Positions 11,909 to 52,160 of a stretch of 52,686 nucleotides of DNA are shown in pieces. Each line of letters opens with the position of its first letter. The first letter of the stretch is position 1. The translations under genes and the position numbers were made by a program. Source of the DNA: an uncultured Prevotellaceae bacterium (lineage in GTDB: Bacteria; Bacteroidota; Bacteroidia; Bacteroidales; Bacteroidaceae); contig CAMVUB010000014.1 of the NCBI GenBank assembly GCA_947170495.1, positions 1 to 52,686 on the forward strand, read 5' to 3'. The notes beneath the pieces are model-generated. The model searched no databases and was not told where the DNA came from. It saw nothing but the letters and a program-made list of their open reading frames with translations.

Positions 11909-13213
11909 ATGAACTTAAAGTTTCGTTTGACACTGCTCAATTTCATTGAGTTTGCCGTGTGGGGCGCCTACCTCACGTCGATGGGCAGCTATCTCGCTCA
12001 TCATGGTCTGGGTCACCACATCGGCTCGTTCTATTCCATTCAGGGCGTCGTGAGCATCTTCATGCCGGCGCTGATGGGTATGCTGGCCGACCGCAAGATG
12101 GAGGGTCAGCGAGTGCTGAGCATGTGCCACGCGCTGGCCGGTCTGTTTATGATTGCAGCCTCGGCGTATGCCTACAATGCAGAGGACGTGCATTTCGGCA
12201 CGCTCTTCACCCTTTACACGCTGTCGGTGGCATTCTTTATGCCGACCATCGCGCTGACCTATTCGGTGGCGTATGCGGCGTTGGAGAAGGCGGGCTACGA
12301 TACGGTGAAGGCCTTCCCCCCCATCCGTGTGTGGGGCACCGTGGGCTTCATCGTGACGATGTGGATCATCGACCTCACCGGCTTGCAGAAGACGCCCGGG
12401 CAGTGGATGGTCAGCGGCGCTTTGAGTCTCGTGATGGCTGCCTACTCGCTGACAATGCCGCGAATGCCTATCAAGAAAGGCGAGCATAAGTCGCTGGCCG
12501 AGGCGCTGGGACTGAACGCCTTCAAGCTGTTCCTGAATCCGCGTATGGCCACGTTCTTCGTGTTCGCGATGCTGCTGGGCTTCTGCCTGCAGATCTCCAA
12601 CGGCTATGCCAACCCCTTCATCACCAGCTTCGGCGCTATCGAGGAGTACCAGAACACCTTCGGCGTGCAGCACGCCAACATCCTCATCTCGCTGTCGCAG
12701 ATGAGCGAGACGCTGTGCATCCTGTTGATTCCCTTCTTCCTGTCGCGCTTCGGCATCAAGAAGGTGGTGCTGATTGCGCTGCTGGGATGGGTGCTGCGCT
12801 TTGCCTTCTTCGGTCTGGGTAACCCGGGCGGAGGGGTATGGCTCTTCATCCTCTCGATGATCGTCTATGGTGTGGCTTTTGACTTCTTCAACATCAGCGG
12901 CTCGCTGTTCGTGAATCAGGAGACCGACGAGAGCATGCGCAGCTCGGCACAGGGCTTGTTCATGATGATGACCAACGGTCTAGGCGCGTTCATCGGCACG
13001 CTGGTGGCACAGGCTGTCATCAACAACTACGTGTTCCATCCGCAGGCCAACGGCGCCATGGGGGACGAGGTGATTGCCGGCTGGCAGACCTCATGGTTCA
13101 TCTTCGCCGCCTACGCCCTCATCGTTGCTGTATGCTTTGCTATCCTTTTCAAGGATAAAAAAAGCCCCTCCTCCGACCCCTCCCCAAAGGGCGAGGGGAG
13201 TATAAACTCTTGA
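11909..13213 (+). CDS. MFS nucleoside:H+ symporter family permease (NupG-like)
   Basis: This 434-residue, 12-helix transporter opens with MNLKFRLTLLNFIEFAVWGAY, the conserved start of the nucleoside:H+ symporter branch of the major facilitator superfamily, and has GMLADRKM in the helix 2-3 loop. It sits in the inner membrane and probably imports nucleosides (family inference). The last residues (KKSPSSDPSPKGEGSINS) are encoded by a dispersed GC-rich hairpin followed by the first unit of an 8-bp array, which also supplies the stop codon, so the native C-terminus has been rewritten by repeats. Confidence 0.85.
   Translation: MNLKFRLTLLNFIEFAVWGAYLTSMGSYLAHHGLGHHIGSFYSIQGVVSIFMPALMGMLADRKMEGQRVLSMCHALAGLFMIAASAYAYNAEDVHFGTLFTLYTLSVAFFMPTIALTYSVAYAALEKAGYDTVKAFPPIRVWGTVGFIVTMWIIDLTGLQKTPGQWMVSGALSLVMAAYSLTMPRMPIKKGEHKSLAEALGLNAFKLFLNPRMATFFVFAMLLGFCLQISNGYANPFITSFGAIEEYQNTFGVQHANILISLSQMSETLCILLIPFFLSRFGIKKVVLIALLGWVLRFAFFGLGNPGGGVWLFILSMIVYGVAFDFFNISGSLFVNQETDESMRSSAQGLFMMMTNGLGAFIGTLVAQAVINNYVFHPQANGAMGDEVIAGWQTSWFIFAAYALIVAVCFAILFKDKKSPSSDPSPKGEGSINS
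13164..13201. repeat. GC-rich hairpin repeat in the permease C-terminus
   Basis: This copy of the dispersed hairpin (CCGACCCCTCCCC-AAA-GGGCGAGGGGAG) is read in frame as part of the permease tail and abuts the 8-bp array. Confidence 0.7.
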
Positions 13214-13297
13214 ACTATTGAACTCTTGAACTCTTGAACTCTTGAACTCTTGAACTTTTGAACTCTTGAACTTTTGAACTTTTGAACTCTTGAACTT
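13210..13297. repeat. 8-bp tandem repeat (TTGAACTN x11)
   Basis: Eleven perfect-length units vary only at the last base (A, C or T). The array begins within the permease stop codon and its last base is the first base of the TTG start of the next gene, so it forms the whole spacer. Confidence 0.92.
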
Positions 13298-13887
13298 TGA
13301 AAGTAGAACTTGTAATTCATGCCGTTGCAGGCAGCGCAGCAGATAGCGATCGCTCGATGCTGCTGCTGAAGGAGAAGAATGGTGAGCGCATCCTGCCCAT
13401 CATGATGTCCACGCGCAGGGCGCTGACGCTGATGATGCGTTCGCGCGTGCCACTGCCCATGCCTGTAGCCACTTCCGTGCCCGATGCTTCGCTGCTGTTG
13501 TTGCGTAAGTTCGGGATTGAGCTCAAGCGCATGGAGCTGACCGCCATCAAGGACGGCGTCTTCTTCAGCAAGCTGGTGGCCGAACGCGATGGCGAGGAGA
13601 AGGCCTTGGACTTCTGTCCGGCCAACGATGGCCTCGTGCTGGCCACGATGGCCTTGTGTCCGATCATGATTGAGGATGAGCTCCTGGAGGCTCAGTATCT
13701 GCATAAGACGGGGGCTAACACCTTCGCCATCAATATCAACACACTCACGCGCAAGATGCTGGAGGACGCTCTCAAGCACGCGGTGGAGAGTGAGAACTAC
13801 GAGGCCGCCTCGCAGCTGCGCGATGAGCTGGCCAAGCGCACCCCGCAGGACGACCAAAAGCCTGAAGCTCAGGAGCCCATGCAATGA
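13297..13887 (+). CDS. Bifunctional nuclease domain (DUF151) protein with UVR motif
   Basis: This 196-residue protein has an N-terminal DUF151/BFN domain (KVELVIHAV...ERILPIMMSTRRALTLMM, then KDGVFFSKLVAERDGEEKALDFCPANDGLVLA) and a C-terminal UvrB/UvrC-type helical hairpin (LEDALKHAVESENYEAASQLRDEL). Plant BFN proteins cleave RNA and DNA and the bacterial role is unclear. No ATG is usable. The only start consistent with family length is TTG at 13297, and that codon is formed at the end of the 8-bp array. It overlaps rsmE by 4 bp (ATGA). Confidence 0.85.
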   Translation: MKVELVIHAVAGSAADSDRSMLLLKEKNGERILPIMMSTRRALTLMMRSRVPLPMPVATSVPDASLLLLRKFGIELKRMELTAIKDGVFFSKLVAERDGEEKALDFCPANDGLVLATMALCPIMIEDELLEAQYLHKTGANTFAININTLTRKMLEDALKHAVESENYEAASQLRDELAKRTPQDDQKPEAQEPMQ

Positions 13888-14630: not shown

Positions 14631-14658
14631 GTTTAAGGTTTAAAGTTTAAAGTTTAAG
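14631..14658. repeat. 7-bp tandem repeat (GTTTAAR x4)
   Basis: Units GTTTAAG, GTTTAAA, GTTTAAA and GTTTAAG begin on the base after the rsmE stop codon. Further on, AGGGCGGCC (near 14660) and GGCCGCCT (near 14716) could pair around an AT-rich loop before the next gene. Confidence 0.85.
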
Positions 14659-14740: not shown

Positions 14741-16204
14741 ATGAATAAAAAATACATCCTTTATTCCATTCCCGTAATCATCGCAGCCATCGTGGCGGGC
14801 TATTTTATTTTTGGCCGCAGCAACGACGCCTACGTCAGTATGCTGCCCAAGAACGCCACCGCCCTGGCGCATTTTGATGTCAAGGAACTTGTTGACGATG
14901 CCGACCTCACCGCCACGGAGCTCTACCAGCTCGTGACGAACACCAACGACAACCCCCAGACGGCTCCCTTGGGCATCGATTTTCAGCGTCCCATCTACGG
15001 CTTCGTCAGCGAGACGGGGAATCTGGGTCTGGCCGCTGCCGTCAGCGATATCGACGACCTGCAGGACCGTCTCGATGAGATGCACGCTCGCGGCAAAGCC
15101 TCGGAGCGCACCGTGCAGCGCGGCTATGAATGGGTAGTCCTCGACGGACAGTGGCTCATGGCTTTCAACAACCAGAAGGCCTTAGCGATGGGCCCGGCCG
15201 TGGGCGCTGCACAGGATGCCCTGCGCACGGAGATGGCCACGCTCCTGGAGCAGCACCGCAGTGAGAGCGCTGCAGAGACGCCGCTCTTCAAAATGCTACA
15301 GGAGTGCGATGATCCCCTGGCCGCCGTTGTGGCACCCGAGGTGCTGCCCTCTCAGGGGCGTAAGCTGCTGTACCAGCTGGGTGTACACTCGCAGAAAGAT
15401 GCGCTGCTGAAGCTCACGCTGGGCTCCGATGACAACGAGCTGGAACTCAACGCCCATGTCGTGGCCCTGACGTCCGAGGTGAAAGAGCACCTGAAGAAGC
15501 TGGACAACGCGATGCGTCCGCTGAAGGGAACCAACCTCGACCTCACACACGCGAATAACACAGCGCTGCTGGCGGTGAACATCAACGGCAACAGCCTCGT
15601 GGAACTGCTGCGCAGTCACACCTCTACGCGCACGGCGCTCGTGGCTCTCAACCTGATTCTCGACCTTGACCAGATGCTGAAGGCCATCGATGGCGACGTG
15701 GCGCTGGAGCTGCTGTCGCCAGCAAGCATCCTCTCGGGCTTCAAACTCTCCGACATCAGTGACTTCTGTCTCACGGCGGAGTTGAGCAACACGGATTTCA
15801 TGGAGCGCGCATCCACCTGGGGCAATGACTTCATTCAGGTCAACGCCCTCACGGACAACGAATACAGTCTCCAGCTCGGACGCGAGCAGCTGTTCTTCGG
15901 CACCTCCGGCAAGCGCCTGTATTTCAGCTCCTCACAGGGCCTGACGGGCGAGGGTAACGAGTATATCCATTCCAAGCGCGACGCGTTGACCGAATGTCGT
16001 TTCTACGCCACCTTCTTCGCTCCGGCGCTCTTCTCGGCGCTCCTCTCGCAGGCCGCAGAAAACGGCATCGCCATCCCGCTGCCACCCGTGCTGCAGCAGT
16101 TCCAGCGCTTCAACATCACGATGGAGGACGCAGGCGACATCAAATTCTCCCTCATCGCCCCCGAAGGGGTGAATATTGCGAAGGAGCTGGTGAAGAGGAA
16201 TTGA
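14741..16204 (+). CDS. DUF4836-like / DUF3352-like protein
   Basis: This 487-residue protein has an N-terminal membrane anchor (MNKKYILYSIPVIIAAIVAGYFIF) without a lipobox Cys. The large extracytoplasmic part (DAYVSMLPKNATALAHFDVKEL... repeated beta-rich blocks such as AVNINGNSLVELL and FCLTAELSNTDFM) resembles Bacteroidota DUF4836 proteins, which lack a known function. It precedes the ABC transporter pair but is separated from it by repeats. The final codons and stop merge into an AATTGAA array. Confidence 0.65.
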   Translation: MNKKYILYSIPVIIAAIVAGYFIFGRSNDAYVSMLPKNATALAHFDVKELVDDADLTATELYQLVTNTNDNPQTAPLGIDFQRPIYGFVSETGNLGLAAAVSDIDDLQDRLDEMHARGKASERTVQRGYEWVVLDGQWLMAFNNQKALAMGPAVGAAQDALRTEMATLLEQHRSESAAETPLFKMLQECDDPLAAVVAPEVLPSQGRKLLYQLGVHSQKDALLKLTLGSDDNELELNAHVVALTSEVKEHLKKLDNAMRPLKGTNLDLTHANNTALLAVNINGNSLVELLRSHTSTRTALVALNLILDLDQMLKAIDGDVALELLSPASILSGFKLSDISDFCLTAELSNTDFMERASTWGNDFIQVNALTDNEYSLQLGREQLFFGTSGKRLYFSSSQGLTGEGNEYIHSKRDALTECRFYATFFAPALFSALLSQAAENGIAIPLPPVLQQFQRFNITMEDAGDIKFSLIAPEGVNIAKELVKRN

Positions 16205-16233
16205 AAATTGAAAATTGAAAATTGAGAATTGAA
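16199..16233. repeat. 7-bp tandem repeat (AATTGAR x5)
   Basis: Five AATTGAA/AATTGAG units contain the last Asn codon and TGA stop of the preceding gene. It is the same family as the array at 9838-9886. Confidence 0.88.
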
Positions 16234-16245
16234 AATTAATAATCT

Positions 16246-17043: not shown

Positions 17044-18354
17044 ATGAGTATCAACATATCTTCGCGCCAGCCTCACCCCTCCATCACGGGAGGGGTCGGG
17101 GGTGGGTCTTCCTCTTTGGTATGGCGCCTCTTACGCCGACATATCAGCATCGGACAGCTCGTGGGCTTCTTCTTCGCCAACCTGCTGGGAATGCTCATCG
17201 TGCTGCTGTCGATGCAGTTCTATGAAGATGTGGTGCCTGCCTTCTCGGGCGATGATGGCATCATTAAAAATACCTATCTCATCGTCTCCAAGCGTATCTC
17301 GGCCGTCACCACGTTACGTGGTGAAGCACAGCCGTTTACGCAGGAGGACATCGCTGACTTCGAGGCCCAGCGCTTCACACGGCAGGTGGGAACCTTCACG
17401 GCCTCGCAGTTCAAGGTCTATGCCTCGCTGTCGATGGGCGGCATTGGCGTGGGCACGGACATGTTCTTCGAGAGTGTCCCTGATGCCTTCGTCGATGGCC
17501 AGTGGCCCGAGGGCCAGCGCTTCGACGGCGACGCCTTCCCCACGGAGGTGCCCATTATCTTGCCCCGTTCCTACTTGACCATCTACAACTTCGGCTTTGC
17601 GCAGAGTCAGTCGCTGCCCAAGGTGTCCGAGGGTGTTGTGTCGATGGTGCAGATGGATATCCGTCTGCGTGGCGAGGGTGGGGCAGAGCGCTTGCTGAAA
17701 GGGCGTGTCGTGGGTTTCAGCAACCGCCTGAACACCGTCCTCGTACCTGCCGCCTTTATGCAGCGTGCCAATGCCGAGCTGGCACCCAACGCCTCGGCGG
17801 CTCCCACGCGACTGATCGTCGAGGTGAAGAACCCCACTGACGATGCCATCGCGGCGTACATCCAGAGCAAAGGCTATGAGCTGGAGAATGACACGCTGGA
17901 AGCCGGTCGCGTCACGTATTTCCTGAAGGTCGTCGCTGCCATCATCATGGCAGTGGGACTGCTCATCAGCGCGCTGTCCTTCTACATCTTGATGCTGAGC
18001 ATCTTCCTCCTCGTGCAGAAGAATGCCGAAAAGCTGCAGAACCTGTTGCTCATCGGCTACTCGCCCTCACGTGTGTCGCGACCCTATCAGCTGCTTACCG
18101 TCGGCATGAACGCCCTCGTGCTGCTGTTGGCCTTCGCCCTGCTGTCCTGGATTCGCGGCCTCTACCTCGACCGCCTGTGGCAAATGTTCCCTGCACTCAG
18201 CGAGGGCTCGATCTCGATGACCATCCTCTTGGGCGTGGCCCTCTTCGTGGTCGTCTCGTTCTTTAATATCGTGGCCATCCGCAGGAAGATCAATAGCCTC
18301 ACGCCCCGTCGCAAGAGTCTGAAAGGAGGACTTTATCACCGCATCAATGGATAA
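17044..18354 (+). CDS. ABC transporter permease, FtsX/MacB-like
   Basis: This 436-residue protein has one N-terminal helix (GQLVGFFFANLLGMLIVLLSM), a large extracytoplasmic domain (~residues 60-290) and three C-terminal helices, the FtsX/LolC/MacB layout. Residues ~8-24 (RQPHPSITGGVGGGSSS) are encoded by a dispersed GC-rich hairpin inserted just after the start. They do not resemble a permease N-terminus. It overlaps the kinase-RapZ gene by 8 bp, indicating translational coupling. Confidence 0.87.
   Translation: MSINISSRQPHPSITGGVGGGSSSLVWRLLRRHISIGQLVGFFFANLLGMLIVLLSMQFYEDVVPAFSGDDGIIKNTYLIVSKRISAVTTLRGEAQPFTQEDIADFEAQRFTRQVGTFTASQFKVYASLSMGGIGVGTDMFFESVPDAFVDGQWPEGQRFDGDAFPTEVPIILPRSYLTIYNFGFAQSQSLPKVSEGVVSMVQMDIRLRGEGGAERLLKGRVVGFSNRLNTVLVPAAFMQRANAELAPNASAAPTRLIVEVKNPTDDAIAAYIQSKGYELENDTLEAGRVTYFLKVVAAIIMAVGLLISALSFYILMLSIFLLVQKNAEKLQNLLLIGYSPSRVSRPYQLLTVGMNALVLLLAFALLSWIRGLYLDRLWQMFPALSEGSISMTILLGVALFVVVSFFNIVAIRRKINSLTPRRKSLKGGLYHRING
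17070..17108. repeat. GC-rich hairpin repeat in the permease N-terminus
   Basis: The hairpin CCCCTCC-ATCAC-GGGAGGGG is followed by the tail TCGGGGGTGGGTCT. The same tail, or its complement AGACCCACCCC, occurs on the other copies. It is read through in frame. Confidence 0.85.
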
Positions 18355-19936
18355 CAGCATCATCGAACTCTATCACCACTTCACAGGCGCAGAGCCCTGT
18401 GAGGTGAAGACGTTGACAGGCTCAGGCAGCAATCGTCAGTACTATCGCCTGACCTCGACGGAGGGGCGCAGCCTCATAGGTGTCGTGGGAACCTCGTTGG
18501 AGGAGAACCACGCTTTCATCACCCTCGCGCGCCATTTTGCGGCGAAGGGTTTGCCCGTGCCGCAGGTGCTGGCCGTCTCGGCAGACGAGCGTTGCTATCT
18601 GCAGGAGGACTTGGGCTCACGTGCCCTCTTCGACGCCTTGAAAAGCGGACGTGAGGCTGGCGGTCAGTACAGCGAAGAGGAGAAAGAGCTCCTGCGTCGC
18701 ACCATCGCCCAGCTGCCGCGACTTCAGATCCTCGGCGGTCAGGGCCTTGATTTCTCTGTCTGCTATCCCCAGCCTGAGATGGACGAGACGAACGTCATGT
18801 TCGACCTCAACTACTTCAAATACTGCTTCCTCAAAGCCACTGGCATCGATTTCCACGAGCTCCGCCTTGAAAAGGATTTCCGCCAGTTGGCGAAAGACCT
18901 TCTCTCAACCCTCGACCCTCAACTTTCCACCTTCCTCTACCGCGATTTCCAAGCACGTAATGTCATGCTGGTAAACACAAAAGCCTCCCCTCGGGGAGGT
19001 TTGGAGGGGGCCCCCTATTTTATCGATTTCCAAGGCGGTCGCCGTGGTCCTATCTACTATGACCTCGCCAGCTTCCTCTGGCAGGCTTCAGCCCGCTACC
19101 CGCAAGCGCTGCGCGAGGAGTTGATAGAGGTCTATCGCAAGAGCTTGGAAGAAGTCTTGAAGGAGGTTTCAGGTTCAAGGGTTCAAGAGTTCAAGGGTTC
19201 AAAAGTTCAAGGGTTCAATCCTTCAATTTTTCAATTTTTCAATCTTTCAATCTTACGCAAGTTTGTCCTCTTCCGCCTCCTGCAAGTCCTCGGCGCATAC
19301 GGCTTCCGCGGCTATTTCGAGCGTAAGAAACACTTCCTCGACAGTATTCCCCCCGCCCTCGACAACCTTCGCGAGCTGTTGAAGGAAGAAGGCTCCTGCC
19401 CATATCCCGAATTGAGAAGAGTTTTGGAGGCCTTAGACTCACCCCCCAACCCCCTCTCTTGTAAAGAGGGGGAGCACACAAGTGACCAAATTCCCCTCTC
19501 TACAAGAGAGGGGTGCCCGAAGGGCGGGGTGAGTCTTGTCGTCCGAATCTTCTCTTTCTCCTTCAAGCGCGGCATTCCCGAGGACACCTCGGGCAATGGT
19601 GGCGGTTATGTCTTCGACTGCCGTTCGACGCACAACCCCGGTCGCTACGAGCCGTACAAGCAGCTGACAGGCTTGGACGCTCCCGTCATCAAGTTCTTGG
19701 AGGACGACGGCGAGATTCTCACTTTCTTGGACAGCGTCTATCGCCTGGCCGACGCCCATGTGGAGCGCTACCTGCAGCGTGGCTTCACAGACCTGATGTT
19801 CTCGTTTGGCTGCACCGGCGGTCAGCATCGCTCCGTCTATTGCGCCCAGCATCTGGCCGAGCACCTGCACGGGAAATACGGCATCCGCGTCGTGTTGAAC
19901 CATCGCGAACAGGGCATCCACAAAGTGTTGGAATAG
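18347..19936 (+). CDS. AmgK-like sugar/aminoglycoside-type kinase fused to a RapZ C-terminal domain
   Basis: This 529-residue protein begins with an APH-fold kinase domain (~1-350): GSGSNRQYYRL nucleotide loop, LYRDFQARNVM catalytic loop and YFIDFQGGRRGP metal-binding Asp. It is closest to the AmgK type that phosphorylates the anomeric position of N-acetylmuramate/N-acetylglucosamine (family inference). Residues ~395-529 form a RapZ C-terminal domain (VVRIFSFSFKRGIPED, then FDCRSTHNPGRYEPYK and FSFGCTGGQHRSV), which in E. coli RapZ senses glucosamine-6-phosphate. Four repeats interrupt the coding sequence: a 7-bp array before the catalytic loop, a hairpin just after it, an 8-bp array, and a paired hairpin forming the interdomain linker. 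Confidence 0.88.
   Translation: MDNSIIELYHHFTGAEPCEVKTLTGSGSNRQYYRLTSTEGRSLIGVVGTSLEENHAFITLARHFAAKGLPVPQVLAVSADERCYLQEDLGSRALFDALKSGREAGGQYSEEEKELLRRTIAQLPRLQILGGQGLDFSVCYPQPEMDETNVMFDLNYFKYCFLKATGIDFHELRLEKDFRQLAKDLLSTLDPQLSTFLYRDFQARNVMLVNTKASPRGGLEGAPYFIDFQGGRRGPIYYDLASFLWQASARYPQALREELIEVYRKSLEEVLKEVSGSRVQEFKGSKVQGFNPSIFQFFNLSILRKFVLFRLLQVLGAYGFRGYFERKKHFLDSIPPALDNLRELLKEEGSCPYPELRRVLEALDSPPNPLSCKEGEHTSDQIPLSTREGCPKGGVSLVVRIFSFSFKRGIPEDTSGNGGGYVFDCRSTHNPGRYEPYKQLTGLDAPVIKFLEDDGEILTFLDSVYRLADAHVERYLQRGFTDLMFSFGCTGGQHRSVYCAQHLAEHLHGKYGIRVVLNHREQGIHKVLE
18904..18931. repeat. 7-bp tandem repeat inside the kinase domain
   Basis: CTCAACC, CTCGACC, CTCAACT and TTCCACC are read as STLDPQLSTF immediately before the catalytic LYRDFQ motif. 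Confidence 0.7.
18980..19016. repeat. GC-rich hairpin repeat inside the kinase domain
   Basis: GCCTCCCC-TCG-GGGAGGT followed by TTGGAGGGGGCCCCC encodes TKASPRGGLEGAP between the RNVMLV and YFIDFQGG motifs, a place where related kinases have only a short turn. Confidence 0.78.
19172..19251. repeat. 8-bp tandem repeat inside the kinase-RapZ gene (x10)
   Basis: Ten units of the form NNTTCAAN (GGTTCAAG, AGTTCAAG, GGTTCAAT, then CCTTCAAT, TTTTCAAT, CTTTCAAT) give a protein period of eight residues: GSRVQEFK, GSKVQGFN, PSIFQFFN. Because 8 is not a multiple of 3, gain or loss of one unit would shift the frame before the RapZ domain. Confidence 0.92.
19436..19535. repeat. Inverted pair of GC-rich hairpins forming the interdomain linker
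   Basis: The left copy (19436-19475) begins GACTCACCCCCCAACCCCC and the right copy (19491-19535) ends GGGCGGGGTGAGTC. Each contains its own hairpin and the outer tails are inverted, like a REP pair (BIME). The whole pair is translated (SPPNPLSCKEGEHTS...PLSTREGCPKGGVS) and joins the kinase to the RapZ domain. Confidence 0.88.
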
Positions 19937-29600: not shown

Positions 29601-29963
29601 TATGACGCATTAGTAGGCAATGAGCTTGTTGGATATTATTTTGCAAGAACTTTTAGCTATCCCGATGAGACAACAAATTGGAACCTTGTTCTTGGCAATG
29701 GCACTTCGGGCATTGGCTTCTACCAGATGAACGGAACGGCTTCTGCCAACAAGGCTTATCTACCTTATCCTCATGTGGCAAGTACCCCTGTTAAGGGCCT
29801 TTTTCTTGTGCCGGGCGACGAGCTGATGGATGGCGTCAACGACCTTTCCCCCAACCCCTCTCCTGTTAGCGAGGGGAGCATTTACAACTTGGCAGGTCAG
29901 CGTCTGAGCAAGCTGCAGAAGGGCGTGAACATCGTGAATGGTAAGAAAGTATTAGTAAAATAA
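26658..29963 (+). CDS. Large secreted protein A with C-terminal GQRLSKLQKGVNIVNGKKVLVK-type tail
   Basis: This 1101-residue protein has a signal peptide (MKKLLLLFCALLCLGGSEGWAG). Two related jelly-roll-like domains follow (~25-170 and ~175-330, each with a GTF....AD.W...WAST/VSTQ..PQ pattern). Then come beta-rich repeats that look like beta-trefoil or lectin modules (SGKYYLIKNTYNGKYMRV and others) and a Prevotella-type C-terminus (IYNLAGQRLSKLQKGVNIVN). This tail resembles type IX secretion C-terminal domains but is shorter. No catalytic motif is recognised. The DNA is clearly AT-richer than the neighbours. A GC-rich hairpin encodes LSPNPSPVSEGS before the tail. Confidence 0.7.
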   Translation: MKKLLLLFCALLCLGGSEGWAGSIVVNSSNGTFKKKHGDAAADTWNNYWASTSTTPQIRMITNYGGDSGLGNIFGPANQTNNAITYTADIRNGYGYSFFISSTHIITKVTIQAWAQGGANKITDNTSGKQYSFTSGEAKTVEIACNAQEIIDAFNIQNNTAFYANVTVYYEEISPVSTPFCTYGPTTGTFYSGSADKTKQDSYADKWVSTQTSPQVTISVIGNNLTCPGRTTSEGASCFFANGGKIYTISVPNSAKITGYTIVGRSYTSAGAAGNDISATTSESVNQTFKGSEDKKLEVSGKDLRSTTFTLTGTNAFLRPTWFLIYAENDPTFAADKASLSNAKSYMVHGARGDWQYTSSDATSLTSTTTFNRTDNTRQIAFIKSATTGNYYAYSVITGKFITSSNTLSDTPEPIFIFETGNADYPFFFSFTSDKSDKNINLTSDPAFAFNTTSTYDAGNQWCLYAAKDFAIPSTASDAITAFETANVTATYKLVFNEEVLAERVVTEAVGSAPTIQWDVPAYCTYDSDVATLTGETTEVNFTLNWAGDFAFSSDYANASWYYLTLDGKYLVYSETGPYALVEKAEISSLQSALWAFEGNPYDGVLVMNKAAGKNLYLKFYLPPTIGSDTYYPWAIGENTNGFTLNISGYYLQNTEDKLQLANECSSTDTDSKYAFDAEEVDYYDLVEEDVLPYMFADPGTNTVLSTTINQPFGLDYETGVMGIYTKYSTNITNKSFTKAQYLDSKSILTSNIVFPQSGKYYLIKNTYNGKYMRVTASATRGSVICDLTAEQAAKDASAHFYITEIDSKPYIMTQGEYLNWVNGTGTTGWTSKNKDKYAHFVSTGSGEGAFSLAYGNGEGGYAGYLGVGYYALTGTESTTVGGSTIDERSKLAHWTFETVNNMTIALNTVRSKSYATFSAPFDVTIGAEATAYQVDLDEERNRAVYTEIADNKVPAGAGVLLISETAATSVTAAIRTAGDAYDALVGNELVGYYFARTFSYPDETTNWNLVLGNGTSGIGFYQMNGTASANKAYLPYPHVASTPVKGLFLVPGDELMDGVNDLSPNPSPVSEGSIYNLAGQRLSKLQKGVNIVNGKKVLVK
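29845..29880. repeat. GC-rich hairpin repeat in secreted protein A
   Basis: CCCCCAACCCCTCTCCTGTT is followed by AGCGAGGGGAG and read in frame as LSPNPSPVSEGS. It marks the junction of the last beta domain and the C-terminal tail, the same place as in secreted protein B. Confidence 0.75.
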
Positions 29964-29964
29964 A

Positions 29965-30000
29965 AGACCCATCCCTCACCCTCCCGTGGGGAGGGGGATG
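29965..30000. repeat. GC-rich hairpin repeat after secreted protein A
   Basis: AGACCCATCCCTCACCCTCC...GGGGAGGGGG begins two bases after the stop codon, in the same orientation as the copy inside the gene. Confidence 0.75.
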
Positions 30001-35911: not shown

Positions 35912-37219
35912 ATGATTTGGAACCCTAACAAAGAATGTATGAGCCGCGACGAGAGAAGCGCGCTCCAAGGAAAGAGACTCCACAAGATTGTGGAGTACGT
36001 GTATCACAACGTCCCCTTCTACCGCAATAAGTTGCAGGAGATGGACATTCGTCCCGATGACATTCAGACCATCGAGGACATCACCAAGTTGCCCTTTACG
36101 ACGAAGAAGGACCTGCGCGACAACTACCCCTTTGGCCTGCAGGCGGCACCGCAGAGCGAGATCATCCGCGTGCACGCCAGCAGCGGCACGACGGGAAATC
36201 CCACCATCGTGGGCTATACGCGTAAAGATATAGGTGTTTGGAGCGAGTGCATGGCGCGCTGTCTGACAGCCTACGGCGTCACACGCGACGACATCTTCTC
36301 CGTGGCCTACGGCTACGGTCTGTTCACGGGCGGTCTGGGCGCACATTATGGTGTGGAGCACCTGGGCGCTTCGGTCATCCCCGCAGGCACGGGTAACACG
36401 GAGAAGCACCTGAAGCTCATCCGCGACTTGGGCATCACGGGTCTGGCCTGCACGCCGTCGTACGCGCTGTACCTCGCCGAGACGATGGACAAGCTGGGTA
36501 TCCGCAAGGAGGATATCAAGCTGCGCGTCGGAGCCTTCGGCGCTGAGCCCTGGACGGAGAATATGCGCAAGGAGATTGAGGAGCGTCTTGGACTGAAAGG
36601 CTATAACATCTACGGTCTGTCGGAGGTGATGGGGCCGAGCGTCAGCTACGAATGTCAGATGCAGCACGGCTCGCACATCTGCGAGGACCATTTCTATCCC
36701 GAGATCATCAATCCCACGACGCTGGAGCCGCTGCCCGCCGGACAGACTGGTGAGCTGGTATTTACGACGCTGACGAAGGAGGGTATGCCCGTGCTGCGCT
36801 ATCGCACCCGTGACCTTTGCTCGCTGATGCCCGGCACCTGTGACTGCGGCCGCACGGAGGTGCGCATGGGCCGCATCGAAGGCCGCTCGGACGATATGCT
36901 CATCATCCGAGGCATCAACGTGTTCCCCTCGCAGGTGGAGAGCGTCGTGCTGTCGATGCCGGAGTTCGCACCGCGTTATATGCTCGTGGTCGATCGCGTC
37001 AACAACCTCGACACGCTGCAGGTGCAGGTGGAGATCCGTCAGGAGTATTTCACCGGCGTCTTCGATACGCCCGCCGCTGTGGATCAGCTCGAGAAGAAGC
37101 TGGCCACCAAGCTGAAGAGCGTGCTCAGCATCGCCGCCAAAGTACAGCTGAAGGCGCCCAACACCATCGAGCGCAGCCAGGGCAAGAGCGCACATGTGAT
37201 AGATAGGCGCAAGCTATAG
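35912..37219 (+). CDS. paaK: Phenylacetate--CoA ligase 1
   Basis: The start at 35912 (MIWNPNKECMSRDERSALQG) gives 435 residues, the usual length. The AMP-binding motif SSGTTGNPTIVGYT, the GLSEVMGPSV adenine-binding segment, YRTRDLC and GRSDDMLIIRGINVFPSQVE (hinge and C-terminal domain) are all present. It activates phenylacetate or related aryl acetates to CoA thioesters with ATP, or in fermenters may run alongside IOR. It is the first gene of an operon with a paralogue and an ACT protein. Confidence 0.92.
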   Translation: MIWNPNKECMSRDERSALQGKRLHKIVEYVYHNVPFYRNKLQEMDIRPDDIQTIEDITKLPFTTKKDLRDNYPFGLQAAPQSEIIRVHASSGTTGNPTIVGYTRKDIGVWSECMARCLTAYGVTRDDIFSVAYGYGLFTGGLGAHYGVEHLGASVIPAGTGNTEKHLKLIRDLGITGLACTPSYALYLAETMDKLGIRKEDIKLRVGAFGAEPWTENMRKEIEERLGLKGYNIYGLSEVMGPSVSYECQMQHGSHICEDHFYPEIINPTTLEPLPAGQTGELVFTTLTKEGMPVLRYRTRDLCSLMPGTCDCGRTEVRMGRIEGRSDDMLIIRGINVFPSQVESVVLSMPEFAPRYMLVVDRVNNLDTLQVQVEIRQEYFTGVFDTPAAVDQLEKKLATKLKSVLSIAAKVQLKAPNTIERSQGKSAHVIDRRKL

Positions 37220-37253
37220 ACCCACCCCTCACCCTCCCTTGTAGGGAGGGAGT
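37219..37253. repeat. GC-rich hairpin repeat, left half of a pair
   Basis: AGACCCACCCCTCACCCTCC continues CTTGTAGGGAGGG, starting at the last base region of the paaK1 stop codon (TAG). It pairs in inverted orientation with the copy at 37317-37358. Confidence 0.88.
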
Positions 37254-37284
37254 GGTCACTTTCAAGAATTTAATTTTTTCATAT

Positions 37285-38655
37285 ATGGATACGAATTCAA
37301 ATCGTCAAGAACATCTTACTCCCCGCCCTACAAGGGAGGGGCAGGGGGGAGGGTCTGCTTTCTTCAACCCCGAATTTGAGACTCTCTCCCGCACAGAGAT
37401 AGAGGCATTGCAGCTGGAACGTCTGAAGGAGACGGTGGCCCACTGCTACACGAATGATTTCTACCGCAAGAAATTCGACGAGGCAGGCATCACACCCGAC
37501 GATATCAAGACGCTGGCCGATGTGCGCAAGCTGCCTTTCACCACGAAGCAGGATTTGCGCGAGACCTATCCCTTCGGTATGGCTTGCGTGCCTATTCGCG
37601 ATTGTGTGCGCCTGCACTCCAGCAGCGGCACGACGGGTAACCCCACGGTCATCCTTCACACGAAGAAGGACCTGGACGAGTGGGCCAACCAGGTGGCGCG
37701 TAACCTGTGGATGGTAGGCTTGCGCCCCGACGACGTGTTCCAGAACTCCAGCGGCTATGGTATGTTCACGGGCGGCCTGGGCTTCCAGTATGGTGCTGAG
37801 AAGCTGGGTATGCTGACGGTGCCTGCGGCGGCCGGTAACTCGTTGCGCCAGATCAAGTTCATCAAGGACTTCGGCACGACGGCCATCCACGCCATCCCGA
37901 GCTATGTCACCCGTCTCTATGAGGTGATGCAGCAGGAGGGCGTTGACCCGCGTCGTGACACGAAGCTGAAGGTGCTGGCCATCGGTGCCGAGCCTCACAG
38001 CGAGGAGCAGCGCAAGCGCATCGAGGAGATGATGGGCGTGAAGGCCTATAACTCCTTCGGCATGAGCGAGATGTGCGGCCCAGGCGTGGGCTTCGAATGC
38101 CCCGAGCAGAACGGTATGCACTTCTGGGAAGACTACTATATCGTGGAGATCGTGAACCCCGAGACGCTGGAGCCTGTGCCCGACGGCGAGATTGGCGAGC
38201 TGGTGCTGACGACGCTCTGCCGCGAGGCGATGCCGCTGCTGCGCTATCGTACGCGCGACCTGACGCGTGTCCTGGGACGCACATGCCCCTGCGGCCGCAA
38301 CCATGTCCGCATCGACCGTATGCGTGGTCGCAGCGATGATATGATTGTGCTGCGTGGCGTGAACATCTTCCCGATACAGATTGAGAAGATCCTCATGAAG
38401 TTCCCCGAAGTGGGCACCAACTACCTCATCACGCTGATCACCGAGGACAACAACGACCAGATGATTGTCGAGGTGGAGGTCAACGAGGCTACCGACGACT
38501 TCGCCAAGCTGCAGGCACTCGAGAAGGAGATTCGTCACCAGCTGGGCGACGAGATCCTGCTGAAGCCCATCGTGAAGCTCGTGGCCAAAGGCTCGCTGCC
38601 CGTCAGCGAAGGCAAGGCCGTTCGCGTGGTCGATAAGCGCAAAGTGTTTGAATAA
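37285..38655 (+). CDS. paaK: Phenylacetate--CoA ligase 2
   Basis: I favour ATG 37285 (MDTNSNRQEH), giving 456 residues. The in-frame ATG at 37252 lies in the repeat region. Catalytic motifs match paralogue 1 (SSGTTGNPTVILHT, FGMSEMCGPGV, YRTRDLTRV, GRSDDMIVLRGVNIFP). The residues LTPRPTREGQGGGSAF near the N-terminus come from a hairpin repeat and family homology resumes at FFNPEFETLSRTE. The new start codon and ribosome-binding region thus lie between two repeat copies. Confidence 0.9.
   Translation: MDTNSNRQEHLTPRPTREGQGGGSAFFNPEFETLSRTEIEALQLERLKETVAHCYTNDFYRKKFDEAGITPDDIKTLADVRKLPFTTKQDLRETYPFGMACVPIRDCVRLHSSSGTTGNPTVILHTKKDLDEWANQVARNLWMVGLRPDDVFQNSSGYGMFTGGLGFQYGAEKLGMLTVPAAAGNSLRQIKFIKDFGTTAIHAIPSYVTRLYEVMQQEGVDPRRDTKLKVLAIGAEPHSEEQRKRIEEMMGVKAYNSFGMSEMCGPGVGFECPEQNGMHFWEDYYIVEIVNPETLEPVPDGEIGELVLTTLCREAMPLLRYRTRDLTRVLGRTCPCGRNHVRIDRMRGRSDDMIVLRGVNIFPIQIEKILMKFPEVGTNYLITLITEDNNDQMIVEVEVNEATDDFAKLQALEKEIRHQLGDEILLKPIVKLVAKGSLPVSEGKAVRVVDKRKVFE
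37317..37358. repeat. GC-rich hairpin repeat, right half of a pair (in paaK2)
   Basis: CTCCCCGCCCTACAAGGGAG continues GGGCAGGGGGGAGGGTCTGC and is translated. The outward tail GGGAGGGTCT mirrors AGACCCACCC of the left copy. Confidence 0.88.
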
Positions 38656-47978: not shown

Positions 47979-47979
47979 A

Positions 47980-48018
47980 GACTCACCCCCAACCCCTCCC
48001 TAGGCAGGGAGGGGAGTA
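47980..48018. repeat. GC-rich hairpin repeat, left half of a pair
   Basis: AGACTCACCCCCAACCCCTC continues CCTAGGCAGGGAGGGGAG and begins two bases after the lyase stop codon. Its inverted partner is at 48110-48152, inside the next gene. Confidence 0.88.
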
Positions 48019-48042
48019 GTAACCTTATAAACAGAATTCCTT

Positions 48043-50787
48043 ATGAAGAGATTGTTGTTTTTTCTCTTGGCTTTTATTTCTACCCTAAGCCTCTCTTTCG
48101 CACAAGATACTACTCCCCTCCCTACAAGGGAGGGGCAGGGGGGAGGGTCTGCCCATCGCTTCAACAACGCCTCCTTCTTGCCCCTTCCTGCTCTCTCCGC
48201 TTTTGGCGGGCAGGGCGTGAGTGGCGCTTTTGCGGGCGTGGCCAATGATGAGGTCTTGGTGGCCGGTGGCTGCAACTTCCCCGACACACCGGCGGCTGAA
48301 GGCGGTCAGAAGGTGTTCTATACGGACATCTATGCGCTTTCGCTTGCAAAGCTTAACGGCGGCTACGTCACCAGCTTCGGCTGGGAGCGCATCGGTTCGC
48401 TGCCTTGCGCGTTGGCCTACGGCGCCAGTGTCACCACCCCTGAAGGTGTGGTCTGCCTGGGCGGTACGGCCGACGGGCAGAAGAGCGAGAACTTCGCCGC
48501 CCTCCTGACCCTCGATAAGGGCAATGCTGTGGTCAGCCGCGACCTGCCGCCGCTGCCTACGAGCCTCGACAACTTCGCCGCCGCTTATGGCGATGGTTTT
48601 ATCTATGTCGCTGGAGGTCTGCATAATGGTCTCCCTAACCGCAAGGCCTACCGCCTGAAATGGCCGTTGCCAGCCTCGTGGTTTGAATCCCAGACAGGTG
48701 CTGCTTGGGAGGAACTTCCCGATGTGCCCGGCCCTGCCCGCGTGCAACCGGCTGCAGCTGTGCAGAAGGGAGCCCTCGCCAGCAACTTCTACCTCCTTGG
48801 CGGCTTCGATCCCCGCTATCGTAAGGCCGTCGCCAATGGCGTCTATTACGACCCCCGCAAGGGTGAGTGGTTTGCCACGAGTTTGATGGAGGGTGCTTTG
48901 GTAGGTGCTTCCGCCCTGCCTTCCGGCGCTGCCCACGTCCTCTGCTTCGGCGGTGTTAACAAGGACATCTTCGAGGCAGCTCTTGAGCGCAACGCCCTCC
49001 TCGCCGACACCACGACCACTGCAGACCAGCTCGCGCAGCTACGCGACGAGGCCTATGCCTATATGACCCAGGAGCCTTCATGGTACAAGTTCCGCAGCAG
49101 CATTCTCGTCTATCACACCATCACCGACTCCTGGGCTGAAGTCTTCGATTCACCCCTTATCGCACGTGCCGGTGCTGCTGTTGTGCCCTTGGCCTCACCC
49201 TCCGGTTCCCTCAGCGCCCTTGTCATCGGCGGCGAGGAGAAGCCCGGTGTGCGCTCGGCGGATGCAACGCGCGTCGATATCGGCTACACCGCCCATTTCG
49301 GTTGGCTCAACTGGACCGTCCTCATCCTGTATCTCCTGGGAATGGTCTATCTCGGCTACTACTTCATGAAGCGTGCCGGCAACTCCGGCGATGACTTCTT
49401 CAAGGGCGGAGGCCGCATCCCTTGGTGGGCTGCAGGCATCAGCATCTTCGCCACCATGCTCAGCGCCATCACCTACATGAGCATCCCCGCCAAGGCCTAT
49501 GCCACAGACTGGACCTACTACCCGATGCAGATCTGCATCCTCTTGGTGTCGTTCCCCGTCATCAGGTACTACCTGCCTTTCTTCCGTCGTCTGAACGTCA
49601 CCACGGCTTATGAGTATCTCGAGCGCCGCTTCAACAGCGCCACCCGTCTGATGGCCAGCATCCTGTTCATCGTCTTCATGGTAGCGCGCACGGCTCTCGT
49701 GCTCTTCCTGCCGTCGTTGGCGATGACCGCTGTCACGGGCATTAATATATATATATGTATAGCGCTGATGGCCCTCATCACCATCCTCTACTGCACGATG
49801 GGCGGTGTCGAGGCTGTCGTCTGGGGCGATGTCATCCAGGGCATCATCCTCGTGGGCGGTGCCATCCTGGCGGCCGTCTATCTCATTGTCAACACGGGCG
49901 ACAACGGCGCCTCTGACTTCTGGCAGATTGCCACCGACCACGACAAGTTCCGCCTCTTCCTCTTCGATGCCGAGAATCCGTTCGACTTCGTCAACGCCAC
50001 GTGGTGGGTTGTCATCCTCGGCGGTCTCGCTAACAACCTCATCAGCTACACCAGCGACCAGACCGTCATCCAGCGCTACCTGACCACCTCCGACGAGAAG
50101 AGTGCCGCACGCGGCATCCTCACCAACGGCCTCATGTCCGTTGTCGTGACCATCGCCTTCTTCACCATCGGCACAGGTCTCTACACCTTCTTCAAGACGC
50201 ATCCCGCAGAGCTCGACATCACCATGGCCAAGGGCGATGCCATCTTCCCCTTCTTCATGATGAGCCAGCTGCCTGCCGGTCTCGCCGGTCTCCTCATAGC
50301 CGCCGTCTTCGCCGCTACGATGTCCACTATCGCCTCCAACATCAACTCCATCTCCACGGCCTTCACGGTGGATTTGTGGGGAAAGATGAAGCCCCGCTCC
50401 AGCTCGCAGCCCGGCGGTGAAGTGAAGGTGGCCCGCATCGCCGGCATCTGCGCCGGTATGATCGGCATGGCGATCGCCTGGCTGATGGCTACCGTTGACA
50501 TCCAGTCGCTGCTCGACTACTTCAACACCATCCTCGGCCTCCTTAGCGGTGCCATCGGCGGACTGTTCATGATGGGTATCTTCTTCCCCCGTATCGGCTC
50601 GAAGGCTGCCATGATCGGCTTCCTCTGCGGCACGGCAACGGTCCTGTACATGAACTTCTTCACGCAGGCCAACTTCCTGCTCTTCGGCTTCGTCTCGATG
50701 CTCGTCAGCGTCCTCGTCGCCCTCCTCCTCAGCATCTTTATGCCGCAGACAGAGGAACAGAAAGGACTTACGTGGAAAACCCTATAG
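48043..50787 (+). CDS. Fusion of NanM-like kelch mutarotase and sodium:solute symporter
   Basis: This 914-residue protein has a signal peptide (MKRLLFFLLAFISTLSLSFAQ) and a hairpin-encoded stretch (TTPLPTREGQGGGSAHR). A six-bladed kelch-type domain (~45-410: LVAGGCNFPD, CLGGTADGQK, YVAGGLHNG, LLGGFDPRY, CFGGVNKD, VIGGEEKPG) follows, like N-acetylneuraminate epimerase. A 13-helix SSS transporter starts near residue 425 (NWTVLILYLLGMVYLGYYFM). The periplasmic domain would convert alpha- to beta-Neu5Ac or hold substrate next to the channel (inference). This fusion is known in Bacteroidota. Confidence 0.88.
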   Translation: MKRLLFFLLAFISTLSLSFAQDTTPLPTREGQGGGSAHRFNNASFLPLPALSAFGGQGVSGAFAGVANDEVLVAGGCNFPDTPAAEGGQKVFYTDIYALSLAKLNGGYVTSFGWERIGSLPCALAYGASVTTPEGVVCLGGTADGQKSENFAALLTLDKGNAVVSRDLPPLPTSLDNFAAAYGDGFIYVAGGLHNGLPNRKAYRLKWPLPASWFESQTGAAWEELPDVPGPARVQPAAAVQKGALASNFYLLGGFDPRYRKAVANGVYYDPRKGEWFATSLMEGALVGASALPSGAAHVLCFGGVNKDIFEAALERNALLADTTTTADQLAQLRDEAYAYMTQEPSWYKFRSSILVYHTITDSWAEVFDSPLIARAGAAVVPLASPSGSLSALVIGGEEKPGVRSADATRVDIGYTAHFGWLNWTVLILYLLGMVYLGYYFMKRAGNSGDDFFKGGGRIPWWAAGISIFATMLSAITYMSIPAKAYATDWTYYPMQICILLVSFPVIRYYLPFFRRLNVTTAYEYLERRFNSATRLMASILFIVFMVARTALVLFLPSLAMTAVTGINIYICIALMALITILYCTMGGVEAVVWGDVIQGIILVGGAILAAVYLIVNTGDNGASDFWQIATDHDKFRLFLFDAENPFDFVNATWWVVILGGLANNLISYTSDQTVIQRYLTTSDEKSAARGILTNGLMSVVVTIAFFTIGTGLYTFFKTHPAELDITMAKGDAIFPFFMMSQLPAGLAGLLIAAVFAATMSTIASNINSISTAFTVDLWGKMKPRSSSQPGGEVKVARIAGICAGMIGMAIAWLMATVDIQSLLDYFNTILGLLSGAIGGLFMMGIFFPRIGSKAAMIGFLCGTATVLYMNFFTQANFLLFGFVSMLVSVLVALLLSIFMPQTEEQKGLTWKTL
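48110..48152. repeat. GC-rich hairpin repeat, right half of a pair (in the mutarotase-symporter gene)
   Basis: CTCCCCTCCCTACAAGGGAG continues GGGCAGGGGGGAGGGTCTGC directly after the signal peptide. It is almost identical to the copy in paaK2 (37317-37358). Confidence 0.9.
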
Positions 50788-50831
50788 ACCCACCCCCGAC
50801 CCCTCCCGTGATGGAGGGGAGAGCCTGCGGG
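50787..50831. repeat. GC-rich hairpin repeat, left half of a pair
   Basis: GACCCACCCCCGACCCCTCC continues CGTGATGGAGGGGAG, starting at the symporter stop codon. Its inverted partner is at 50897-50933 inside the epimerase gene. Confidence 0.88.
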
Positions 50832-50867
50832 TAGTCTCTTGATAAATCTTTAAAACCTTTATATATT

Positions 50868-52160
50868 ATGTCAAATAACAAATCAAAGCGCCAGCCGCTC
50901 CCCTCCCTCACGGGAGGGGTTGGGGGTGGGTCTTTCAAGCAACTGGCCGACCTTTACAAGTCTGAACTTCTTGACCGCACGATTCCCTTCTGGCTCAACA
51001 AGAGTCAGGATGCGGAGTTCGGCGGCTATTTCACCTGCCTCGACCGCGTAGGCAACGTCTATGACACCGACAAGTTCGTGTGGATGCAAGGCCGCGAGGT
51101 GTGGATGTTCTCCAAACTCTACAACACCGTGGAGCCCCGCCAGGAGTGGCTCGATGCCGCCATCCAGGGTGCCGAGTTCCTGAAGAAGCACGGCCACGAC
51201 GGCAACCTCAACTGGTACTTCGCCCTCGACCGCGAAGGCCACGCCCTCGTGGAACCCTACAACATCTTCTCCTACACCTTCGCCGTCATCGCCTTCGGGC
51301 AGCTCTCCATCGCCCTGCAGACAGCCGCCAAGAGTGGCCTCTCTGCGGTGAATGCGTGCGGCGATTCCATCGCCGCAGATTCCCTTTCTGCCGAATATGC
51401 CGACATCGCCAAGCGCACCTTCGACATCGTCCTCTCCAAGACCGACAACCCCAAGGGCCGCTGGTCGAAGGCCGCTCCCGGTGCCCGTGCCCTGAAGACC
51501 TTCGACCTGCCGATGATCCTCTGCAACGTAGCCCTTGAGATTGAGTCCCTGCTGGAGCCCGCTTTCCTGCAGAAAGCCATCGACGACTGCTTGCACGAGG
51601 TCATGGACGTCTTCTACCGCCCCGAGCTCGGTCTCATCGTGGAAGCCCTGGGCAAGGACGGCAACCTCGTCGATTGCTTCGACGGCCGCAAGATGAACCC
51701 CGGTCACGCCATCGAGGCCATGTGGTTCGTCATGGACCTCGGCAAGCGCCTGAACCGCCCCGAGCTTATCCAGAAAGCCGTTGAGATCTGTCTCAACGAG
51801 ATCGAGTACGGCTGGGACAAGGAGTACGGCGGCATCTTCTACTTCATGGATCGCCTCGGCCATCCGCGCCACGAGCTCGAATGGGACCAGAAGCTCTGGT
51901 GGGTACACTTCGAGACCCTCATCTCCCTCATCAAGGGCTACCAGCTCACGGGCGACCAGCGTTGCCTCAACTGGTTCCAGCGCGTCCACGACTACGCTTG
52001 GAAACACTTCCGCGACAATGACTACCCCGAGTGGTACGGCTATCTCAACCGCCAGGGCGAAGTCCTGCTGCCCCTCAAGGGCGGTAAGTGGAAAGGCTGC
52101 TTCCACGTGCCCCGTGGCCTCCTCAACGTCTGGAAGATCCTCGAGGACCTCGCCGGCTAA
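50868..52160 (+). CDS. N-acylglucosamine 2-epimerase
   Basis: This 430-residue protein has an (alpha/alpha)6-barrel of the AGE/renin-binding-protein family. Landmarks are WMQGREVWMFSKLYN, GHAIEAMWFVMDLG with a catalytic His, WDQKLWWVHFE and GCFHVPRGLLN with the second His. In the nan pathway it converts ManNAc to GlcNAc. Residues ~8-23 (RQPLPSLTGGVGGGSF) are hairpin-encoded and homology starts at KQLADLYKSELL. A terminator follows. Confidence 0.9.
   Translation: MSNNKSKRQPLPSLTGGVGGGSFKQLADLYKSELLDRTIPFWLNKSQDAEFGGYFTCLDRVGNVYDTDKFVWMQGREVWMFSKLYNTVEPRQEWLDAAIQGAEFLKKHGHDGNLNWYFALDREGHALVEPYNIFSYTFAVIAFGQLSIALQTAAKSGLSAVNACGDSIAADSLSAEYADIAKRTFDIVLSKTDNPKGRWSKAAPGARALKTFDLPMILCNVALEIESLLEPAFLQKAIDDCLHEVMDVFYRPELGLIVEALGKDGNLVDCFDGRKMNPGHAIEAMWFVMDLGKRLNRPELIQKAVEICLNEIEYGWDKEYGGIFYFMDRLGHPRHELEWDQKLWWVHFETLISLIKGYQLTGDQRCLNWFQRVHDYAWKHFRDNDYPEWYGYLNRQGEVLLPLKGGKWKGCFHVPRGLLNVWKILEDLAG
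50897..50933. repeat. GC-rich hairpin repeat, right half of a pair (in the epimerase gene)
   Basis: CTCCCCTCCCTCACGGGAGG continues GGTTGGGGGTGGGTCT and is translated near the N-terminus. It resembles the copy in the ABC permease (17070-17108). Confidence 0.88.

Follow-up and report, generated by a model that had tools for sequence, protein, structure and literature searches.

Repeat copies in the window

The DNA analysed here (the window) comprises bases 1-52686 of contig C14 in a metagenome-assembled genome (MAG) of an uncultured Prevotellaceae bacterium (2.33 Mb in 84 contigs, estimated 79% complete; labelled G000), and the subject of this study is a family of short repeats, each made of a GC-rich hairpin with a one-sided tail, that are scattered between and within its genes. 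The genes concerned encode, among others, PaaK proteins (paaK1 and paaK2), a NanL-like protein, a NanM-SSF protein, an N-acylglucosamine 2-epimerase, a kinase-RapZ protein, permeases of the ABC and MFS types and secreted proteins A and B; gene names given without a family search (aroA, map, nanL and others, here and below) were read from sequence only. The nearest named relatives of the epimerase are found in MAGs from rumen and foregut labelled as Bacteroidaceae or Bacteroidales.

Such a family, with about 15 copies in the window and at least nine of them translated, was originally proposed in a sequence-only reading. Its reality is borne out by comparison with shuffled sequence: the core GGGAGGGG has 12 matches in the window versus a mean of 1.6 in 100 shuffles, and the tail AGACCCACCCC, with at most one mismatch, has 10 versus a mean of 0.85. 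Fourteen copies could be aligned; a further core match at 14354 was excluded from the count, having by eye neither tail nor hairpin. Reading frames hold 10 of the 14 (those at 13163, 17066, 18979, the pair 19435/19536, 29842, 32347, 37318, 48112 and 50896), in agreement with the proposed minimum. MAFFT put the hairpin wrongly in two repeat alignments, including that of the window copies. Rfam at gathering thresholds gave no match in the window.

Three features went beyond the original proposal, namely the arrangement of copies as oriented pairs (four in the window; Table 1), the fact that left copies make or adjoin the upstream stop codon (at 37219, 47978 and 50787), and the abundance of the repeat in the genome (see below). 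The stop of paaK1, TAG (37217-37219), consists of a T followed by the AG of the left repeat, and paaK2 has an in-frame ATG at 37285, 72 nt ahead of the right outer edge of the unit; a GTG at 37252, within the left repeat, is likewise in frame, and the first later in-frame start codon is a TTG 17 codons past the unit. Similarly, the TAG stop of the NanM-SSF gene (50785-50787) is made jointly with the repeat, the epimerase has its ATG at 50868, and the next in-frame start codon comes 48 codons past the unit. At the junction between the NanL-like and NanM-SSF genes, a TAA is directly followed by the left tail. Here the right repeat would lie after the probable native start, because a signal peptide (judged by eye) trails the ATG at 48043; the same junction in the relative G019 has the right end only.

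The fourth pair is read through: the kinase-RapZ frame stays open for 538 codons across the unit, at an inter-domain linker whose length differs among 9 aligned sequences. The degenerate copy at 18979 in the same gene coincides with a net nine residues more than in each of 8 aligned orthologues, consistent with the proposal that the peptides are insertions. No left end was found upstream of the copy in the ABC permease gene.

Table 1. Repeat copies, two-ended units and in-unit leaders in the window
Feature	Position	Strand	Details or basis
Two-ended junction unit, T-type, paaK1/paaK2	37218..37356	+	Left repeat 37218-37256; right repeat 37318-37356, opposite orientation
In-unit start codon and leader of paaK2, MDTNSNRQEHLTPRPTREGQGGGS	37285..37356	+	Leader of 24 residues
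Junction unit, NanL-like gene/NanM-SSF gene	47979..48150	+	Left repeat 47979-48018; right repeat 48112-48150
Junction unit, G-type, NanM-SSF/N-acylglucosamine 2-epimerase	50786..50933	+	Left repeat 50786-50823; right repeat 50896-50933
In-unit start codon and leader of epimerase, MSNNKSKRQPLPSLTGGVGGGS	50868..50933	+	Compared with unit-free relatives
Two-ended unit, 102 bp, inside kinase-RapZ gene	19435..19536	+	At variable inter-domain linker
Lone right-end copy, ABC permease N-terminus (start 17044, MSINISSRQPHPSITGGVGGGS)	17066..17109	-	Sequence alignment
Lone left-type copy, one base past stop of secreted protein A	29965..30000	+	Tail match, alignment
Single in-frame copy near C-terminus of secreted protein A (LSPNPSPVSEGS)	29842..29881	+	
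Single in-frame copy near C-terminus of secreted protein B (LTPDPSLSKKGE)	32347..32386	+	
Single degenerate copy read as C-terminus of MFS permease (SPSSDPSPKGEGSINS)	13163..13203	+	
Degenerate copy within kinase domain, around ASPRGGLEGA	18979..19015	-	Kinase-RapZ gene

Copy number and architecture of the two-ended unit

A strict pattern of the repeat has 150 matches in the G000 genome and none with the reversed-pattern control, confirming the expectation of further copies outside the window. The detailed scan covered 1.08 Mb (46% of the genome), in part picked around pattern hits, where simple gene calling gave 794 genes and 755 adjacent pairs, of which 579 were co-directional. A looser scanner detected 225 elements in this DNA versus 30 on reversed sequence, and about 13% of them may be false. 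Among 67 neighbour pairs less than 350 bp apart, 59 have their tails outward (+-), five inward (-+) and three are in tandem (++). The repeats are thus mostly two-ended units, with tails pointing outward around a spacer, rather than lone hairpins.

The units found at stop/start junctions (defined below) have a median length of 151 bp (10th-90th percentile, 132-177). Median spacer GC content is 34% for these and 50% for other units (overall, 56%). In an alignment of 13 G-type units, the sequence beside the hairpin is often GCCTGCGG on the stop side and almost invariably CGCCAGCC on the start side, the inner flanks of the two ends being unlike each other and mostly in the same order. The unit termini in the alignments are AGAC...GTCT. 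One sub-class with a similar spacer occurs in G000 and the related genomes G003, G015 and G019, and sits just upstream of the native ATG. In this class (G000_C2:77631, G000_C37:3417, G003_C5a:9440 and others) a four-codon mini open reading frame (ORF), ATG ACC CTR TAR, precedes the native start. We also observed a repeat of ~86 nt (GGGTAGCGAAGG...GAGGACGGG) nested in the hairpins of three units of G000 (regions of C6:52098, C10:28762 and C10:37696).

In minimum-energy folds of the RNA of 37 units bearing a leader, the two tails are base-paired with each other in 36, and the mean unpaired probability around the start codon is 0.59. An RNA stem enclosing the start codon is possible, as judged from leader units folded without a control set.

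Position at stop/start junctions and reading frame

A unit was assigned to a junction when the stop of a long upstream ORF lay within -15 to +60 nt of its left tail, which is the case for 44 of the 59 units. The stop is at offset 0 in 12 of these, at +2 in nine (TAG formed with the AG of the repeat), at -1 in four and at +29 in four (TAG within the hairpin), the rest being scattered. All 44 lie between co-directional genes (77% expected), a figure to be read with the caution that the definition partly presupposes co-direction. In 38 of the 44 the frame of the downstream gene is open back to an ATG within the unit, and the remaining six have a native ATG 0-24 nt past it. The frame control, applied to the 43 units whose downstream frame spans 90 codons or more, gave 38 for the frame of the gene, four for the +1 frame and none for the +2 frame. 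Counting three read-through cases, an in-frame in-unit ATG is present in 41 of the 59 units, and in 32 of these 41 it is located 65-81 nt ahead of the right edge. As for the non-junction units, 14 of 15 are in frame within a single open frame of more than 300 codons.

In 40 of the 41 cases the predicted leader has 17-37 residues; the remaining one, a read-through case, has 71. Of the 41 leader-bearing proteins, 20 picked for recognised functions were scanned against NCBIfam. In 18 of them (XerD, RadC, SufE, HisB, HisC, TsaD, HolB, ProC, RecQ, ApgM, SufS, IspH, FolA, IlvN, PyrD, EtfA, CdsA and IspG) a full-length family profile starts at position 1-9, about 13 residues or less from the end of the leader, several of these matches falling below the curated cut-off and that of FolA overlapping the leader by about two residues. 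The exceptions are RnhA, whose match was to a longer model, from position 82 onward, and PurM, matched in its C-terminal part only.

These data bear on the suggestion that the units are ordinary doublets of repetitive extragenic palindromes (REPs), with the apparent leaders being annotation artefacts and translation starting within the native gene, an explanation put forward for many N-terminal REPs of other bacteria (Di Nocera et al., PMC3733652). REPs are indeed known between co-directional genes and beside stop codons (PMC3733652), and 9 of the 41 leader genes have a possible start codon (in-frame ATG, GTG or TTG) within 5 codons past the unit. On the other hand, no such codon is found within this distance in the other 32, and in four genes there is none for 40 or more codons; the ATG frame bias (38:4:0), the family profiles beginning close past the leader in 18 of 20 proteins and the loss, in unit-bearing genes, of the native start seen in relatives (see below) also speak against this explanation, and we consider it improbable.

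Relatives with and without units

At the nanM-SSF/epimerase junction, we viewed 12 of the 30 loci fetched; the epimerase N-terminus was visible in ten rows. Units are present in four of these (G000, G003, G010 and G016), with different leaders and right edges at almost one codon, and absent from six (G019, G029, G002 and three unlabelled rows, which must be the loci of G015, G033 and G018). The unit-free proteins start with MDFKKL (G019), MIDFKKL (G029) and MPMTDFKQL (G002). For hisC, which has a match in 37 genomes, 30 loci were viewed: a unit is found in G000 and G015 and a decayed-looking leader in G064, most other loci having a native start (M and a few residues, then LVR), as does G010; the G006 locus gave an ambiguous picture. 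Units or remnants also occur before hisB, inside the first 150 nt past hisC, in G000, G015, G016, G018 and G019. Among the 18 of 30 fetched ilvN loci that were viewed, clear leaders are seen in G000 and G064 and a similar peptide in G001; the gene after ilvN has a leader in G000, G064 and G015.

Thus, in unit-free relatives hisC, hisB, ilvN and the epimerase gene have a native start at the place where the unit ends elsewhere. Since genes at unit-free junctions frequently overlap or lie close together, the unit appears to stand in place of the native stop and start. No second, leader-free copy of HisC or IlvN was detected in G000, each giving one match at the cut-offs used. A hisC tree aimed at independent insertions in G000 and G015 gave no resolution among the ten relevant genomes.

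A separate observation concerns the orthologues of the NanM-SSF gene (window 48043-50787) in G003, G010, G016, G018 and G033, where the protein match is split near residue 283 by about 75-200 bp with an open frame; at the G033 locus a REP-like sequence apparently lies at the place of the split.

Spacers shared between loci

The spacers of units C2:108591 (aroA/unknown) and C4:74245 (map/tsaD) share 50 nt at 98% identity, including the ATG and a leader, MIKDINQ. Across up to 89 units from five genomes, 42 spacer pairs were similar at E<=1e-3 (none in five shuffles). In 41 of these pairs the units stand before genes without detected similarity; three of the 42 are due to the nested ~86-nt repeat. 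In G015, two neighbouring his units show 86% identity over 81 nt, their encoded peptides being MNNNEDITRQP and MNNNEDTSRQP. The spacer list and the label "unrelated" for the genes are rough, because units were oriented by a crude score that is wrong for some of them, e.g. C4:74245; the junction counts given above rest on separate unit listings, not on these orientations. Some spacers are found again in front of unrelated genes, together with their start codon and leader, and the units concerned would thus copy or convert as wholes. Sequence similarity of this kind demonstrates copying or conversion, without telling the two processes apart, for a minority of units.

Another way to explain the pairs is that the two ends insert independently, the spacer then belonging to the gene itself as its leader region, with occasional gene conversion accounting for shared spacers. 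This would agree with the signal-like peptides between the ends of at least four units, with the occurrence of single right and left ends and with the mutually unrelated sequences of most spacers. The tight spacing of the ends at junctions, the differing and mostly order-keeping inner flanks of aligned G-type units, the foreign character of the leaders relative to the native starts of relatives, and spacer similarity across unrelated genes and species all argue in the opposite direction. We regard independent insertion as a rather unlikely explanation, albeit one to be taken seriously.

A further alternative, based on the AT-rich segment upstream of genes bounded by inverted repeats, is that the units are invertible promoter cassettes of the Bacteroidales phase-variation type. 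Yet in 38 of 44 junction units the segment contains the start codon and leader, so that inversion would remove the start, and the two ends have unlike inner flanks. This makes promoter inversion a very remote prospect.

Distribution and candidate mobiliser

Within 61 genomes drawn from the genus, the strict pattern is present in 38, with 1 to 150 copies. In an order-wide sample of 247 genomes it was found in G000 and four others, the latter with 1-2 copies. Exact matches to the right-end pattern also occur in twelve viral-contig stretches of IMG/VR (L365-L376).

In size and inverted ends the units fit a miniature inverted-repeat transposable element (MITE) moved by a conventional DDE-type transposase through its terminal inverted repeats. 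Target duplications of at least 5 bases were, on the contrary, found in none of the 59 units (re-paired flanks, mean 1.6). No transposase-like ORF was recognised in 11 wider tail-out pairs (350-5000 bp), whose ORFs were inspected by eye and not domain-searched. Overall, we find a DDE-type element distinctly improbable. Absence of target duplications fits an HUH mechanism, albeit it does not prove one.

The sequence-only reading suggested looking in the same genome for a Y1/HUH gene akin to those of REP-associated tyrosine transposases (RAYTs). HUH proteins related to NCBIfam REP_Tyr_transpos are indeed encoded in G000, matching that family below its cut-off; Pfam Y1_Tnp has two hits there, also below its cut-off, which carry MPDHxH and YxxDNP motifs. 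More generally, the genus has HUH proteins in which MPDHxH-like and YxxDNP-like motifs are accompanied by an additional C-terminal region. A PDB search returned three entries named transposase (E ~0.001), which we take to be ISDra2 TnpA. A RAYT-like profile built from ten sequences (two from G000) has 0-9 matches per genome, fragments included, and their number correlates with that of the repeats over the 61 genomes (Spearman 0.50, p 3e-5, relatedness not corrected). A full unit begins 242 bp from one of 20 RAYT-like genes inspected (C77). Among 30 Y1_Tnp-type loci scanned, flanking repeats are not the rule, one diverged copy lying ~1.1 kb from the L001 gene. The idea of RAYT-moved REPs stands as regards the existence of HUH proteins, and is not established as regards their association with the repeats: in these incomplete MAGs a REP-like hit is inside or within 600 bp of 5 of the 20 RAYT-like genes inspected (several of the hits weak). 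The repeat ends in AGAC/GTCT, not GTAG or CGTC. The RAYT-like HUH protein is a candidate mobiliser only, not an established RAYT system.

Other repeats were noticed at such genes: in-frame copies of the palindrome TGGCGGACGAACCGCCA near the N-terminus of the RAYT-like gene at L002:706-1992 (-), and GGACGCGTCC-type repeats upstream of another one (L001:780-850).

Other repeats in the window

Short tandem repeats, of types AACTCTTG, AATTGAA..., GTTCAAGG and CCCTTGAAC, lie at 9838-9882, 13205-13304, 16199-16243, 19165-19244 and 41237-41317; the one at 19165-19244, within the kinase-RapZ gene, corresponds to ~20 residues absent from 8 aligned orthologues. A 72-nt direct repeat (4943-5014 and 5624-5695) is 88% identical.

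Proposed model

The architecture of the units, their positions and frames, their absence in relatives and some spacer sharing across unrelated loci, all apparent at the level of sequence, make it quite probable that they constitute a non-autonomous REPIN-like mobile family that carries the start codon of the downstream gene at operon junctions. A full unit would consist of two inverted ends, each a AGACCCACCCC-type tail with a GC-rich hairpin, around a variable spacer, and would persist almost exclusively where translation survives, that is in frame within ORFs or at co-directional stop/start junctions. At a junction, the outer tail of the left end would adjoin or make the stop of gene 1 (TAA or TAG beside AGACC, or TAG/TGA within the hairpin), and the AT-rich spacer would usually supply the ATG, at the preferred distance given above. 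Translation would start at this ATG and run through the right end, giving a leader that consists of M, a few mostly polar residues and PLPSLTGGVGGGS or TPLPTREGQGGGS and that joins the product of gene 2 at about native residue 2-7. Spread could proceed by a single-strand mechanism with a RAYT-like HUH protein acting in trans, spacers may be swapped by recombination between the conserved ends, and in the mRNA the left and right ends may pair around the start codon.

Several observations weigh against this model. Much of the examined DNA was chosen around pattern hits, and repeat densities are inflated upward because of this, as is the share of in-unit starts (41 among the 794 called genes). Apart from the nine leader genes with a start codon soon after the unit, at least 4 of 38 units have a native-looking signal or lipoprotein peptide ahead of the right end, and the two ends may thus have arrived separately; lone right ends exist (17066 in the window; G019; G064), and most spacers have no detectable relation to any other. 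The loss of the native stop and start is without explanation in the unit model. With respect to the mobiliser, nine pattern-free genomes have RAYT-like matches and two genomes with at least 20 copies have none (the MAGs being incomplete), to which the sparse REP-like hits near RAYT-like genes and the lack of a recognised transposase-like ORF in the wider pairs should be added.

On a broader interpretation, about which our judgement is evenly poised, this would be a class of elements owing its survival to a full termination-and-restart module, which replaces the stop and start at operon junctions, terminates the upstream protein, supplies a start codon and a leader of ~20 residues, and lets unrelated genes exchange leaders. 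The putative recipients include essential genes (hisB, hisC, tsaD, ispG, ispH, folA, holB and others). Repeats are normally viewed as tolerated in intergenic space; here, dozens of housekeeping genes in one genome have apparently had their translation starts and N-termini rewritten by them. As a natural experiment, the family could show how much freedom there is to exchange translation initiation regions and N-termini, and it offers material for testing the RAYT-like HUH proteins of the genus. It would also account for unusual peptides at the N-termini of proteins from these rumen Bacteroidales, and suggests caution in trusting such N-termini in annotation.

Comparison with known systems

The sequence-only reading likened the repeats to Rickettsia palindromic elements and REPs. 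The likeness holds for a palindromic family read in frame and is incomplete for the main unit, a two-ended junction pair with a start codon and not a single hairpin. It also held that such a class had no description for Bacteroidales; the available portions of Quentin et al. (2018, PMC6006769) and Di Nocera et al. (2013, PMC3733652) contain no account of the present family, although they do mention tnpAREP subclasses with atypical structures in Bacteroidetes (PMC6006769) and list this phylum among those with CGTC repeats (PMC3733652). We found no prior description of a repeat donating a start codon and N-terminal leader in open-licence PMC papers, and no open-licence PMC text joining REPIN, RAYT and start codon (a whole-word match, which plurals escape); the term "start codon" is absent from the portions available of PMC3116915, PMC3733652 and PMC10969869.

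Like REPINs, as described in the accessible part of Bertels and Rainey (2011, PMC3116915), the units are inverted pairs of short high-copy palindromes with a less conserved spacer and ends able to pair, and their copy number varies between relatives. In that study the repeats are almost wholly extragenic (14 of 1,067 16-mers overlap genes), and a flanking REP was present at each RAYT gene examined (PMC3116915). In contrast, the present units either form part of a reading frame or contain a start codon, 41 of the 59 right ends coming after an in-frame in-unit ATG, which is at odds with a predominantly extragenic location, and the RAYT-like genes are mostly unflanked.

The GTAG/CGTC REPs (PMC3733652, in part) likewise adjoin ORFs, mostly between unidirectional or convergent ones, their termini may give a TAG stop and some are in frame, many N-terminal cases being judged possibly non-coding; the terminal tag of the present repeats, AGAC/GTCT, is different. 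With tnpAREP/RAYT subclasses 2.4 and 2.6 (PMC6006769, in part) the genus shares proteins with the HUH motif and a Y-x-x-[DN]-N-P motif, encoded by related multi-copy genes per genome, whereas the repeats here are mostly away from the flanks of these genes. As with the Rickettsia palindromic elements, compared by their description in the MITE review (PMC10969869, in part), the units are ~150 bp long and can extend the products of unrelated genes by a peptide through in-frame insertion; unlike those elements, described as insertions within ORFs, most full units are at stop/start junctions, replacing the native start. Overall, the units resemble REPINs in architecture and the Rickettsia elements in being read in frame; what is new is the apparent supply of a stop and a start at operon junctions.

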